DNA of 51,618 nucleotides from assembly GCA_022825665.1 (NCBI GenBank), contig JAJDWI010000003.1:1-51618 (forward strand), given 5' to 3'. The position numbers and the translations under genes were made by a program. Under the pieces are notes generated by a model that had not been told where the DNA came from, ran no database searches, and saw only the letters and a program-made list of their open reading frames with translations. This document shows, in pieces, positions 15,623-38,380 of this stretch (position 1 is its first letter; each line of letters starts with the position of its first letter). This DNA is from Candidatus Poribacteria bacterium (lineage in GTDB: Bacteria > Poribacteria > WGA-4E > WGA-3G).

Positions 15623-17350
15623 CTATCCTTTTTTCATGTCAGTTGTTTTTTGCAAAGTCTTTCTACCATACCAGTATATTAATTGTCTAAAATAATATCT
15701 CATGTTTCTTTTTATTTTTTCAAACTCTGGCACAAACAGGCATTCTCCTCCAAGTATAACTAACTGCGATTTTGCTCTGGTGGTAGCAACATAGAAAATA
15801 CGACGTTCCTCTTCAAGGATATTATCTTGACGCGGATACTTCCGATCCAACGTATTGTGTATAAGGATAACCCGTTCCCATTCACATCCCTTCGCTTTAT
15901 GGATTGTCATAACTTCTACGGATTTAGATATAGTTCCCTCTGATAATAACGCTTGAACACGACCCACTTCATAGTTTGTCCGAACAAGAATCGCTGTTTC
16001 CACTGATTTTTTTAACTGGTTGGATAAATGTTCAGACAATGTGTATGGAGTCGTTTCAACAAACTCAATTTCACATTTCAAAGGAATATTTGCACGTAGA
16101 TTCTTCCTTATTCGAGGACTGTTTCGTTCAATTAACGCTCTTGAATGTTCTACAATAGTTGACTTGGAACGGTAATTTCTCGTAATTTCATACTTTGTTA
16201 CATCCGATCTATTAGAGAACTCCAACATTATCTGTGAATTTCCACCTCGGAAACTATATATCGCTTGGTCATCATCTCCAACTACGAATATATTGTCTGT
16301 TAATTGTGAAATCAGACGATAATCCGTAATGGCAATATCCTGAAATTCATCAACAAGCAGATACTGATACTTGTCTTGGTAAGTTTGTCTTATCTCAGAA
16401 TTAGTTTCAAGTAAGTTTGCAGAATAGATTATCATATCCTCATAATCAATAGCATTTGCTTCTGATTTTTGGGTTTCATATTTTTTACCAAATTCTCGTG
16501 CAACTGGATTATCTATTGACTTAGGATCAAAAAGACCTGATTTCACTTGACGTTTTGCTCGCATGACAATTTCTTTAATGTCATGAAAACGATCTGAAAG
16601 ATATTCAAAATCCGGATCTCTGTCCAAATGATCTGTATATTCCACCCCAAAATGTTGACAGAACATTTCAATCATGAGTTGATTGCTATACTGAACTCGC
16701 AAAGGATCAGCACGATTAAAAACACCACCATGATTTCTATAATGTCTAATCCAGTATGCTTCGCGTTGGTTTGCCTTTTTACCAACAACTCGTTCTAACA
16801 CCTCAAAAATGAATTGTGATTTGCCCATTGATCTTATTGATTGTCGTAGACGATCATTTGATGAATGTTCGAAATGTTCACGTCGTCTCCTATCAGGATT
16901 TGTAGATTGTCCAATATAACATTTACCTGTCTGAATATGCTCAATCTTATATATTGATACCTTTGATGAAGACGCTCTATTACCAATTTGTCTCTTTTCT
17001 TCTTCAAAGACTGAATCAAATTTACTTTCCCATATTTCTGGAGGATATTTAAAACCTGCAAGTTTATAATTGTTCTTGATAATTTCATTACCAAAAGCAT
17101 GAAGTGTACGAATAGTAGGTAGTTCGGATTTTGTCTTCAGCTGCGGAATTATCCTATTCTCCATTTCTTTAACTGCTTTTCTGTTGAATGCTATTGCAAG
17201 GATAGTTTTAGGAGGGATATTGTGTGATTGTATGAGATTCAGAATGCGTTCTGTTACGACAGTGGTTTTACCACTCCCGGGTCCAGCAACTACTATCGCC
17301 GGACCTGTGAAGTGATTAATTGCTTTAGCTTGGTTTTTATCAAGATGCAT
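15623..17350 (-). CDS. UvrD/PcrA-like SF1A helicase with an inserted GIY-YIG nuclease domain
   Basis: A 575-residue predicted DNA helicase-nuclease. SF1A motifs in order: GPGSGKTT (24-30), AFNRKAVKEM (54-63), TLHAFGN (82-88), LLVDEFQD (331-338), VGDDDQAIYSFRGG (357-370), NYRS (392-395), TIHKAKGCEWERV (482-494) and FYVATTRAK (519-527). Between TLHAFGN and Walker B, residues 130-206 form a GIY-YIG domain: IYKIE (133-137), CYIGQS (144-149), Arg-rich DRRRREHF (153-160) and catalytic-type Glu197 in QREAYWI. Subdomain 2B appears short. Adjacent genes are housekeeping (purine operon, MFS). A role in repair or phage defence is inferred only. Confidence 0.85.
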   Translation of the reverse strand: MHLDKNQAKAINHFTGPAIVVAGPGSGKTTVVTERILNLIQSHNIPPKTILAIAFNRKAVKEMENRIIPQLKTKSELPTIRTLHAFGNEIIKNNYKLAGFKYPPEIWESKFDSVFEEEKRQIGNRASSSKVSIYKIEHIQTGKCYIGQSTNPDRRRREHFEHSSNDRLRQSIRSMGKSQFIFEVLERVVGKKANQREAYWIRHYRNHGGVFNRADPLRVQYSNQLMIEMFCQHFGVEYTDHLDRDPDFEYLSDRFHDIKEIVMRAKRQVKSGLFDPKSIDNPVAREFGKKYETQKSEANAIDYEDMIIYSANLLETNSEIRQTYQDKYQYLLVDEFQDIAITDYRLISQLTDNIFVVGDDDQAIYSFRGGNSQIMLEFSNRSDVTKYEITRNYRSKSTIVEHSRALIERNSPRIRKNLRANIPLKCEIEFVETTPYTLSEHLSNQLKKSVETAILVRTNYEVGRVQALLSEGTISKSVEVMTIHKAKGCEWERVILIHNTLDRKYPRQDNILEEERRIFYVATTRAKSQLVILGGECLFVPEFEKIKRNMRYYFRQLIYWYGRKTLQKTTDMKKG

Positions 17351-35038: not shown

Positions 35039-35932
35039 TTATTCTTCCGATCCGTCTAATTCTTGCATGAACGATTCAACACTGACTGTCTGGACTGCTG
35101 TCCGAAGCAACTCTGTCAAACGATCAAGGTCCAGAATAGATTCAAGGGCATCCGACACAGGTTGTATATCACTCAGCGGGAAACGCTCAGTGAGTACCGA
35201 CAGAATATTTTTTATGGACGTTTCACGTGAGCCTAGTTCATAACCTTGGTCAACGCCCTTCTGCATTAAGTGTTCTATAAAAGGAGATTCTCGCATCATT
35301 TCCTCCGATATAAGTTTTTGTAAAAATGAAAGGTCATAGGCTAAACTACCTAACGTTGACATCGCAAACAAAAGTGTTCCACGCGTCTGTGTATCAACTG
35401 GTGCGGTAACCGTCTTCTCAACACATCTTTCCAACCATGCTTCCGTGTTTATACCTTCAGGTGGTTTCATCAAAGGCGTAAACGGTAAAAGTCCAACCGA
35501 TGCTGTATCTAAAATCGCTTCCCCTTCTAAATCCGCCAACCGAATCATCTGATACTTGTGCTGCAAACCAAATACATCATTTCCATAACTATAGCCGCCA
35601 GGGTCGGTCTGCCCCGCATTTGGACTTAGATATAGTACTACGGAATAGACAGGAATCTCATGCCGCAGCAAGAGTTCACTTGCATAAGCGAGTACCCGCA
35701 ACGGCATCGGTTTATCTCTACTATCTTCAGTTTGCACCTCTATATGAAGGAGGACTGTCTCATTCTGCCATCGCACCTTAAATGTCATGTCATTGCGATG
35801 CACCTTAACCGTTTGTTGTTCCGTGTCAAGTGTCTCTAAGACTTCAACATCGGGTGTATCAAAGGATAGCATGGCGAAGTCATCAGCGAACCGATCCATC
35901 AGATGCTTCACGATTTCATCATATTGTGCCAT
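35039..35932 (-). CDS. Rpn-like PD-(D/E)XK nuclease / DUF4351-type protein
   Basis: A 297-residue protein from the ATG at 35932; the longer frame to 35998 adds a low-likelihood leader. The N-terminal half has a PD-(D/E)XK-like core: Asp48 in RNDMTFKV and Glu65-x-Gln67 in LLHIEVQTED. The C-terminal half holds ILSVLTERFPLSDIQPVSD and a Leu-rich helical tail similar to the DUF4351 module seen in Rpn recombination-promoting nuclease/transposase-like proteins. Such genes are common in bacteria with many repeats. It may be a stray mobile or defence gene. Confidence 0.68.
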   Translation of the reverse strand: MAQYDEIVKHLMDRFADDFAMLSFDTPDVEVLETLDTEQQTVKVHRNDMTFKVRWQNETVLLHIEVQTEDSRDKPMPLRVLAYASELLLRHEIPVYSVVLYLSPNAGQTDPGGYSYGNDVFGLQHKYQMIRLADLEGEAILDTASVGLLPFTPLMKPPEGINTEAWLERCVEKTVTAPVDTQTRGTLLFAMSTLGSLAYDLSFLQKLISEEMMRESPFIEHLMQKGVDQGYELGSRETSIKNILSVLTERFPLSDIQPVSDALESILDLDRLTELLRTAVQTVSVESFMQELDGSEE

Positions 35933-36120
35933 GCTAATTGTTTGCCTTTTCCTACTGATTATTTTACTGATTATACTTGATGGGTGGTGGATTGTCAAGG
36001 AGGGTTTTTTGGTAGTGGAGTAAAATGTCGTGATTTATGTCAATTGCATTCTATATTGTTGAATACTCAATTTATTATTATTTCAAAAGTGGTTTACATC
36101 TAATAAAAAATCGTTCATTG

Positions 36121-36483
36121 TTATCTCATTAGTTCTTCTTTTGAAGGTGGGTTGTAGTTGCTTGGTATGTTATTTGGTCCGAAATCCCACAATGGAATAT
36201 ATCCTTTACAATTCTTGTATTTCTCACCTGATCCTATTAGTCGATCCGTATGGATATGCATGACTAAAAACCATATTTCTGCTTTCTGTTCATCTGTTTC
36301 AGCGTAGTCAAGAGCTTTTTTATAATAGTGAAGTGCTTTTCCTAATTGCTTTTTGGATTCTTTTATATCTATACCTTTGTCTTTGAAAGACTGAAATTTT
36401 GCAGCACTACTCTTTCCTACAAGTGATACGCTCATTCCAATAATTGAACAAAGTGAACCAATGTATGTGATTATGTTTAACAT
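36121..36483 (-). CDS. Small protein with one membrane helix and TPR-like helices
   Basis: A 120-residue protein of unknown family. One hydrophobic segment (residues 3-23), then a basic region and an amphipathic pair (QLGKALHYYKKALDYAETDEQKAEIWF) resembling one TPR. It follows the HNH nuclease gene by 56 bases on the same strand, so it may belong to that operon as a membrane partner. No function is assigned. Confidence 0.6.
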   Translation of the reverse strand: MLNIITYIGSLCSIIGMSVSLVGKSSAAKFQSFKDKGIDIKESKKQLGKALHYYKKALDYAETDEQKAEIWFLVMHIHTDRLIGSGEKYKNCKGYIPLWDFGPNNIPSNYNPPSKEELMR

Positions 36484-36539: not shown

Positions 36540-37478
36540 CTATAATTCCCAATAATCCCCTTTAAACACTTCTCTGACGTGCCACCCGACAAACTCTAAT
36601 TCTGGATAATATAATTGCCTTTGCGGTAGGGATATTTTTTTACCATGAAAATCCATAAGCCATTCCTTAAAACCTTTCGTTCCGTGTGCATCATCCGATA
36701 CCAAGATTTGTCGTTGTCTGGACAATGTGAATGCCCCACGGTCAAATAACTTGTGATGGAGAGAACATAGTGCTAATCCGTTGGATTCAATATCTGGTCC
36801 CTCCGCCCTATGCCATTTAATATGTGCAGCTTCCAAGGCAACCAGTTGGTCAAGTAATCTGACTTGGAATCCACAAACAGCACATTTATTTTTATACGCA
36901 TTCAAAATCTTTTTCCGAAAATGTGGGTCTCGAGGACGCGTAGTCCTTCTATCGGGTCTTATTTCAGTCGGATAAAACCTAATTTGGGTTGGATAAGAAA
37001 TACCAACCGCCTGCAATATATCTTCATGGTAAGTAATAGGGAAATGCGAATCCAATAGGTTCATAGCAACTTCATAAACTAATCTTTGATTTTTCTCAAA
37101 TTTTCTCGCAATAGGTTCAATAAAACCACCTACACCGTACTGCTCAAGATCCTTAATGATTGCATCACCAGTAGGTTTCCTATTACTTCTTAAAGTTTCC
37201 CCAATCATATATTCATTAGGTATATCCCAAACTCTTTCTTTTTCATTTCGTAACCGCCAAAATGGATCCTGAGGACGATAATATTTTCTAGGAGGTCCGA
37301 ATTCCTTTAGTAAATTTCTTAAATCCTCTTTTATATCAATATAGGCTAATTGCTTGTCACCACTTAGTAATTTTCCAATTGCGTACAGGACAAGGAGAGG
37401 TTTATGAGGTGCTCTTTCATCACCTCTTTGCCATATATTTAGGTCATGAAATCTTCTAAGTATTTCTCTATTCTTCAA
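36540..37478 (-). CDS. HNH endonuclease with phosphorothioate-DNA sulfur-binding domain (ScoMcrA-like)
   Basis: A 312-residue protein combining an N-terminal SBD-like module with a C-terminal HNH nuclease. Residues 22-77 (RAPHKPLLVLYAIGKL, EFGPPRKYY, PFWRLR) match the sulfur-binding domain known from ScoMcrA-type enzymes that cut near phosphorothioate DNA. The HNH part has Cys199-x2-Cys202, His219 in AAHIKWH, Asn233, Cys238 and His241-His242 in CSLHHKLFDRGAF. It lies 16 bases after the DndC-like gene, probably in one transcript. Whether it attacks or spares modified DNA cannot be told from sequence. Confidence 0.85.
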   Translation of the reverse strand: MKNREILRRFHDLNIWQRGDERAPHKPLLVLYAIGKLLSGDKQLAYIDIKEDLRNLLKEFGPPRKYYRPQDPFWRLRNEKERVWDIPNEYMIGETLRSNRKPTGDAIIKDLEQYGVGGFIEPIARKFEKNQRLVYEVAMNLLDSHFPITYHEDILQAVGISYPTQIRFYPTEIRPDRRTTRPRDPHFRKKILNAYKNKCAVCGFQVRLLDQLVALEAAHIKWHRAEGPDIESNGLALCSLHHKLFDRGAFTLSRQRQILVSDDAHGTKGFKEWLMDFHGKKISLPQRQLYYPELEFVGWHVREVFKGDYWEL

Positions 37479-37494
37479 GGTTTATCCCAAATTT

Positions 37495-38337
37495 TCATTT
37501 ATGACAAATCAAGCACGGTTCTTCATCATCCTCATCATCGTGAATATCGGTTAATATTTCTATCAGTCGCCGATTTGGTTTTTCCTTTTTCTTAGAAGTC
37601 TTTGCTTTTTCAGTCTTTGACTTGATTTGTGCTATTCGTTCTGGATCTGCAAGTTCCTCCAAACTTTCACCTTGACTCCACGTGAACCTTTCACCTGTCT
37701 CTGAATTGAACTTCTCATAACCTTTAGCAAGTTCAAAAAGGTCTGGGTGTTGTTCCAAGAGTCCCACCCATTCGGATTTGCGTTGGAAAAAGCAGAAATA
37801 GCACCCGGAACGTGTGCGCCACTTGTAATAGTCAGGTAAACCGAGTCCACTTTCCTCAAGGATTTGGAAAACGTCATCTTTGGTAATACCATCATCTTTG
37901 AATGGATATTTGGGTATAATGTTTTGAAAGGAACTTATTTTTGGTGGTTTGTAACCGATTCGATCTTCGTCAGCACGGATAGCGATGTAATGATAAACTT
38001 CGTCATCACCAACGTATTCTTCAAAAGGTTTTATCTTGAGTTTGATTGTGCACCAACGGACTTGAGAGGAGGGCAGTAGACCGCCGTGTAATGTCAACCA
38101 ATGATCGAAATCACGATCCATGTTGAGCCGCTCTATCGGTTTACCAAGGAATGCTTCAAGTCGATCTAAAAAGTCGTAGGTCTCAGGCAATTCCTTGCCA
38201 GTATCAGTGAAGAAGTATTCCATTTCAGGCACTCTGTCACGCATGTAGACAGCAAGTGCTGAACTGTCTTTTCCACCAGATAGAACGAGAAGATGTCGTC
38301 TTTTTTCTGCCAATCTGTCCCTCTCAAATTGGTTCAT
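37495..38337 (-). CDS. DndC-like PP-loop ATP pyrophosphatase / PAPS-reductase-family protein
   Basis: A 280-residue protein from the ATG at 38337; a GTG two codons earlier is possible. It has the PP-loop LSGGKDSSA near the N-terminus, FFTDTGKELPETYDFL, RWCTIKLKIKPFEEY, IRADEDRIGY and SGCYFCFFQRKSEW with a Cys-x2-Cys pair. The C-terminus is Lys-rich, then acidic, and ends in another Cys-x2-Cys (CLICHK). DndC proteins of DNA phosphorothioation share these motifs, but dndA, B, D, E and ssp genes are absent here. It may activate a substrate for sulfur insertion. Transcribed from the promoter at 38352-38380. Confidence 0.8.
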   Translation of the reverse strand: MNQFERDRLAEKRRHLLVLSGGKDSSALAVYMRDRVPEMEYFFTDTGKELPETYDFLDRLEAFLGKPIERLNMDRDFDHWLTLHGGLLPSSQVRWCTIKLKIKPFEEYVGDDEVYHYIAIRADEDRIGYKPPKISSFQNIIPKYPFKDDGITKDDVFQILEESGLGLPDYYKWRTRSGCYFCFFQRKSEWVGLLEQHPDLFELAKGYEKFNSETGERFTWSQGESLEELADPERIAQIKSKTEKAKTSKKKEKPNRRLIEILTDIHDDEDDEEPCLICHK

Positions 38338-38351
38338 TAACACTAAATATT

Positions 38352-38380
38352 ATTATAGCATTTTCACTGATTTAATTCAA
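38352..38380 (-). promoter_or_regulatory. Near-consensus promoter of the DndC-like/HNH operon, probably leaderless
   Basis: On the minus strand TTGAAT, a 17-base spacer and TATAAT with a TGC extension directly before it. Transcription would start near 38345, 2 bases before the GTG at 38343 and 8 before the ATG at 38337. No Shine-Dalgarno is present. Confidence 0.65.

Follow-up and report, generated by a model that had tools for sequence, protein, structure and literature searches.

An sspD gene followed by a gene for a sulfur-binding HNH nuclease at reduced Ssp loci of Poribacteria

Introduction

What does a gene for a PP-loop sulfur enzyme do immediately ahead of a gene for a nuclease of the kind that reads sulfur-marked DNA? 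The question is raised by a stretch of 51,618 nucleotides (the window) that is one entire contig of the genome of a Candidatus Poribacteria bacterium (G000 in our sample; 4.53 Mb in 170 contigs, 95% complete). An original prediction, made from the sequence alone, described the first gene as DndC-like and the pair as a compact modification/restriction unit, or an orphan restriction pair, lacking other phosphorothioation genes. Enzymes that join a sulfur-binding domain (SBD) to an HNH domain, such as EcoWI, cleave phosphorothioate (PT) DNA and, in vivo, restrict plasmids that carry PT (PMC7461809), and fewer than 3.6% of SBD-HNH enzymes lay near dnd genes in a published survey (PMC7461809, PMC6224610). 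Single-strand phosphorothioation is the work of SspBCD, with SspE or SspFGH as effectors (PMC8092258, PMC7188994). SspB nicks DNA and is required for PT formation (PMC8092258); SspD, an ATP pyrophosphatase, binds to the cysteine desulfurase SspA, which is probably the source of its sulfur (PMC7188994). We have asked which of these systems the pair belongs to, what else the cell possesses, and whether the two genes look maintained.

The two genes

Both open reading frames are present as predicted, on the same strand and 16 nt apart:

37495..38343, minus strand: sspD-type gene, PP-loop ATP pyrophosphatase / sulfur carrier, 282 aa, GTG start
37479..37494, minus strand: intergenic gap between sspD and the HNH gene, 16 nt
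36540..37478, minus strand: SBD-HNH nuclease gene, 312 aa, 16 nt downstream of sspD
37008..37478, minus strand: sulfur-binding domain at the N-terminus of the HNH protein, residues ~1-157, pocket H25, K26, P72
36723..36920, minus strand: HNH nuclease domain, residues ~187-252, Pfam PF13391

The PP-loop protein contains the SGGKDS and cysteine motifs (RWCT, CYFC, CLIC) that had been read in it, and the HNH protein the RAPHKPLL and PFWRLR signature. Relatives of sspD begin at the equivalent of the TTG codon at 38310, and at other pair loci the gap between the genes is -4 to +42 nt, with a 4-nt overlap in two. A scan for promoters and terminators gave hits below chance; one 11/12 site lies ~70-100 nt upstream of sspD.

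The PP-loop protein proved to be of the SspD type and not DndC-like. It matches the PADLOC SspD model at full length (residues 16-282, 393 bits, E=1.6e-118) and the PADLOC DndC models at about 20 bits, and it scores 14.7 bits with the DndC equivalog TIGR03183, the cut-off of which is 290.4. Structure comparison gives its predicted fold as that of PAPS/APS reductases and PP-loop thiolases, and the PP-loop and C98, C181, C184, C277 and C280 are invariant. It is thus a full-length member of the SspD family known from SspABCD (PMC8092258, PMC7188994). Among PDB sequences it has a weak match to 'PptA' (21fy), an entry for which no paper was found in the literature searched. Its phage relatives are weak or partial, except for one faecal phage contig record at 42%.

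The assignment of the second gene to SBD-HNH enzymes of the ScoMcrA/SprMcrA/EcoWI kind stands. Its product passes the NCBIfam model PT-DNA_restrict (NF045808; 317.6 bits, cut-off 180) and matches Pfam HNH_2 (PF13391) with 45.6 bits. Confidence in the AlphaFold model is low over the HNH half (most blocks below 60), and we therefore interpret the SBD half alone; this predicted structure resembles the SBD of ScoMcrA (5zmo; Foldseek E=9.7e-5, TM 0.73 over target) and has matches also to SprMcrA and Hga (entries 5zmo, 7cc9, 8h0l). The pocket residues H25, K26 and P72 are invariant among relatives and correspond, by motif rather than by superposition, to H116, R117 and P165 of ScoMcrA (PMC6224610), while the HNH/zinc residues C199, C202, H219, N233, C238, H241 and H242 are invariant in 29 relatives. 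The window protein has the domain order of EcoWI and SprMcrA (PMC7461809, PMC6224610) and shares the SBD fold, the sulfur-pocket H, K and P and the HNH residues with EcoWI, SprMcrA and ScoMcrA; unlike these three it is operonic with SspD, and the residue preceding its pocket proline is D where ScoMcrA has Y. HNH genes of this group are under purifying selection (omega 0.12).

Phosphorothioation genes elsewhere in the genome

A search of the whole genome for dnd and ssp genes found cysteine desulfurases and DndC, DndD and DndE and failed to find SspB or SspC. The DUF4007 nickase SspB gave no match in this genome with a model that is positive in 47 of the 85 genomes searched, and the SspC AAA+ ATPase gave none at 1e-5 with a model that is positive in 50/85. 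Just upstream of the pair there is no convincing remnant of either gene (best tblastn E=0.72). The sulfur donor must lie outside the pair, as had been foreseen, and the genome holds eight PF00266 cysteine desulfurase matches over the cut-off, the best at 511 bits.

A second contig, C57, carries DndC (566 bits), DndD (540) and DndE (83.6) in one cluster, all over curated cut-offs. Proteins of the PbeA and PbeC types are encoded there too, as is a dnd_assoc_4/PbeD-like protein with a weaker match. The statement that the pair stands without other phosphorothioation genes is therefore true of the window and untrue of the genome; a dnd cluster elsewhere with its own dndC had been named as evidence against the original prediction, and that is what C57 contains. 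Because the three Dnd proteins exceed their cut-offs, the cell is predicted to be PT-positive, making PT DNA by way of its Dnd-Pbe genes and not by way of the genes in the window. At C57 (L004 8561-18094) the DndC-DndD-DndE operon faces the PbeA-, PbeC- and PbeD-like genes and an HTH regulator, the layout of a Dnd-Pbe system. Published Dnd systems with Pbe or SBD-SRA-HNH neighbours likewise place a PP-loop sulfur enzyme near a PT-reading nuclease (PMC10853773), but the window protein differs from the DndC of DndABCDE in failing its model, and this genome has its real DndCDE-Pbe cluster on the other contig.

It might be supposed that this Dnd cluster, the components of which are available in the genome, supplies what the pair lacks as a PT modification/restriction unit. 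We consider that very improbable. The pair is found without DndC in G036, G043, G045 and the closed genome G046, and so is independent of Dnd, and the co-occurrence of class-1 HNH proteins with DndC is random (13/34 vs 15/51, p=0.48). More broadly, PT-reading nucleases in the phylum co-occur with both Dnd and Ssp genes, with no sign of Dnd avoidance.

A second SBD-HNH-like class, sometimes in tandem and scoring 115-148 bits with NF045808, which is below the cut-off, lies within 8 kb of DndC at 11/28 DndC loci (G041:C41, G063:C83, G065:C47, G016:C34 and seven more Poribacteria loci), in contrast to the published figure for SBD-HNH enzymes (<3.6%).

Comparison across the phylum

The 85 genomes of the phylum in our sample contain 56 SspD loci. 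At 14 of these, in 14 genomes, an HNH gene lies directly downstream of SspD, bearing out the expectation that the two genes would recur side by side. None of the 14 pair loci has both SspB and SspC intact, whereas the genomes of the other 42 SspD loci have SspC in every case (42/42) and SspB too in 41/42 (Fisher p ~2e-9 for pair state against SspB/SspC loss, uncorrected for kinship). SspC is missing altogether from 11 of the 14 pair genomes, nine of which also lack any SspB match; G013, without SspC, has SspB several kb off, and G020, also without SspC, has an SspB fragment only. Elsewhere the damage is partial: in G034 SspB is a fragment and SspC is broken, the SspB of G081 has two stops, and SspB is missing from G082. 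The pair state changes about eight times on the SspD tree, so the reduced state arose repeatedly. The closed genomes G046 and G084 show the same state, and an assembly gap is therefore not the cause of the missing genes.

The usual locus in the phylum is SspB-SspC-SspD with variable effectors before or after it: SspE, PbeA/PbeC-like pairs, DndB-like proteins, GHKL ATPases, or SBD-HNH in front. The order HNH-SspB-SspC-SspD with an intact HNH gene occurs in 11-12 genomes, so the presence of HNH does not in itself exclude Ssp genes. The right-hand neighbours of the pair in the window (families c9, c12 and c28) also flank the complete SspBCD locus of G035, so the pair sits at a standing Ssp site. 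What separates it from SspABCD is that both the SspB nickase and the SspC ATPase are missing from the genome, and SspE and SspFGH from the locus, the effector being SBD-HNH; since the two defining genes were searched for and are absent, we set the pair apart from the SspBCD system proper. As for the compact modification/restriction unit of the original prediction, a recurrent two-gene unit is what remains of it. Modification is unsupported because the genome lacks SspB and SspC, both of which belong to the known SspBCD machinery, and the 120-aa ORF at 36121-36483, put forward as a possible third member, falls outside the unit because it has no relative at any of the 56 comparable loci and belongs to no family above a curated cut-off in profile searches.

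Loss of sspB and sspC and selection on sspD

Just upstream of SspD, G031 and G037 still carry the opening codons of SspB (METQLIVENTNTPYLKNPSFSGHQTF in G031; compare MENLLLAEHTATPYIINPSFSGHQTF at complete loci); read from the sequence, this scar is that of an internal deletion that took the remainder of SspB and the whole of SspC. G084 has a similar SspB remnant. At the G000 locus no deletion scar was seen. G000, G040 and G043 share the left neighbour c29 and the intergenic sequence, with neither SspB nor SspC between, and on this shared flanking sequence and on parsimony the loss would be older than the split of G000 and G043.

Selection on SspD was estimated from extant sequences by pairwise dN/dS and by a codon likelihood model with 47 full-length genes. 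Omega is 0.048 on the terminal branches of pair-only genomes vs 0.069 elsewhere, and omega = 1 is rejected (2dlnL 714; 65.5 for the G000 branch alone). Terminal branches may span time before the loss, so species pairs that share the loss provide the stronger test. G000 and G043 differ by dN 0.025 and dS 0.95 (dN/dS 0.026), and G031 and G037, with their common scar at the SspB start, by dN 0.021 and dS 0.77 (dN/dS 0.027), a single in-frame TGA in the G037 gene being excluded from the count. The Fe-S cysteines and the PP-loop are intact in 12/12 full-length SspD copies at pair loci. Residues that might mark the pair state were sought in both proteins: in SspD none distinguishes pair from complete loci after correction for 320 tests, and in the SBD of the nuclease residue 71 varies, but its variation tracks the HNH clade as well. 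With purifying selection continuing after the loss, and with no residue peculiar to the reduced state, SspD has the look of an enzyme that still works, unchanged, in cells lacking SspB and SspC.

The main rival to a maintained SspD is a relic in decay. The SBD-HNH protein would be a stand-alone type IV PT-dependent enzyme, incompatible with Ssp modification or making it superfluous; sspB and sspC would have been lost, and sspD would be a leftover beside a nuclease that is itself under selection. The loci can be arranged in just such a graded series from the 5' side, in which SspB is broken (G081), then gone (G082 and the contig L151), SspC is broken too (G034), SspD acquires one stop (G037) and is half deleted (G040), and finally HNH stands alone beside c29 (G041). 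HNH is alone at the related loci of G075 and G079 as well, SspD fragments adjoin HNH in the Desulfobacterales contigs L158, L166 and L170, and HNH genes that so often stand alone can evidently do without SspD. A leftover gene is hard to reconcile with the dN/dS of ~0.026 that two independent species pairs show after the loss or with active sites intact in every full-length copy, and the supposed incompatibility with the genomes where intact HNH coexists with complete SspB-SspC-SspD. We treat decay as a serious but unlikely account.

The reduced arrangement reaches beyond Poribacteria: in the Gemmatimonadetes contig L151 (2250-9888) SspC-SspD-SBD-HNH, without SspB, lies directly behind a TonB-receptor-like gene.

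SspD might also be kept in repair from outside. SspB and SspC would then be a polymorphism within species, and pair-only genomes would regain a working sspD by recombination with complete strains. SspD proteins of pair and complete loci do intermingle on the tree, HNH does not follow the SspD tree, and no SspD residue separates the two states. The common scar of G031 and G037 and the common flanks of G000, G040 and G043, each set clustering on the SspD protein tree, favour descent without import, however, and we think upkeep by recombination quite improbable.

Proposed role of the pair

The reading that we favour, with moderate confidence, is that sspD and the SBD-HNH gene form a two-gene operon, a recurrent and selected derivative of SspBCD without sspB and sspC, in which SspD works with the nuclease. 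Deletion of sspB and sspC from an SspB-SspC-SspD operon would have left sspD and the HNH gene. The HNH protein would be a PT-sensing nuclease that cuts sulfur-marked foreign DNA, with a target PT motif that may differ from that of the host's own Dnd system. A housekeeping cysteine desulfurase would charge SspD with sulfur, and SspD would retain its ATP-pyrophosphatase and sulfur-carrier chemistry, serving no longer SspB and SspC but the nuclease, perhaps as partner, activator or self-protection factor. The pattern of conservation suggests that SspD probably has a job of its own alongside the cutting enzyme.

A bolder version makes the two proteins a minimal sulfur defence by themselves. HNH would bind and nick DNA in place of SspB, and SspD would add or use sulfur at the nicked sites, as a self mark or as a mark-and-cut signal on invading DNA, so that marking and cutting would both fall to one compact pair without SspB or SspC. 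We hold this to be improbable.

Under the favoured reading of a maintained SspD that works with the nuclease, the loci amount to a natural knockout, apparently repeated, in which SspB and SspC are lost while SspD survives intact under strong selection and has an SBD-HNH gene beside it every time. Should SspD function without SspB and SspC, one of two things would follow: sulfur marking needs a smaller minimal machinery than has been assumed, or SspD plays a further part, in the control of a nuclease that reads PT. The loci also bear on the puzzle of how PT-reading nucleases coexist with PT-making hosts. In the literature searched we found no paper on SspD outside SspABCD and none combining SspD with a sulfur-binding domain; the parts are of known kinds, and as far as we found it is their combination without SspB and SspC, its recurrence and the maintained SspD that are undescribed.

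Other observations

Among the effectors that follow SspBCD in Poribacteria (L088-L122), several belong to no assigned system. They are a GHKL ATPase of 818 aa (c11), a protein of 725 aa that is DndB-like over one stretch, with its small partner (c18/c19), an MzaB-like ATPase pair (c25/c33), GmrSD_N-HNH proteins (c51), and PbeA/PbeC-like genes joined to Ssp and not to Dnd (c14-c16). The neighbour c9 (35039-35998 in the window) has a weak Rpn/PD-(D/E)XK transposase-like match and forms the right edge of the locus in ~10 relatives, with or without SspBCD. A small ORF, c10, which by eye has the look of a BrnT-type toxin-antitoxin antitoxin, often precedes SspD, SspB or HNH (L069, L092, L079, L123), and G040 too carries a BrnT-like ORF in front. 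Also by eye, a UvrD/Rep-type helicase ORF at 15623-17350 in the window appears to have a GIY-YIG-like sequence (KCYIGQSTNPDRRRREHF...) inserted among the helicase motifs of its N-terminal part.
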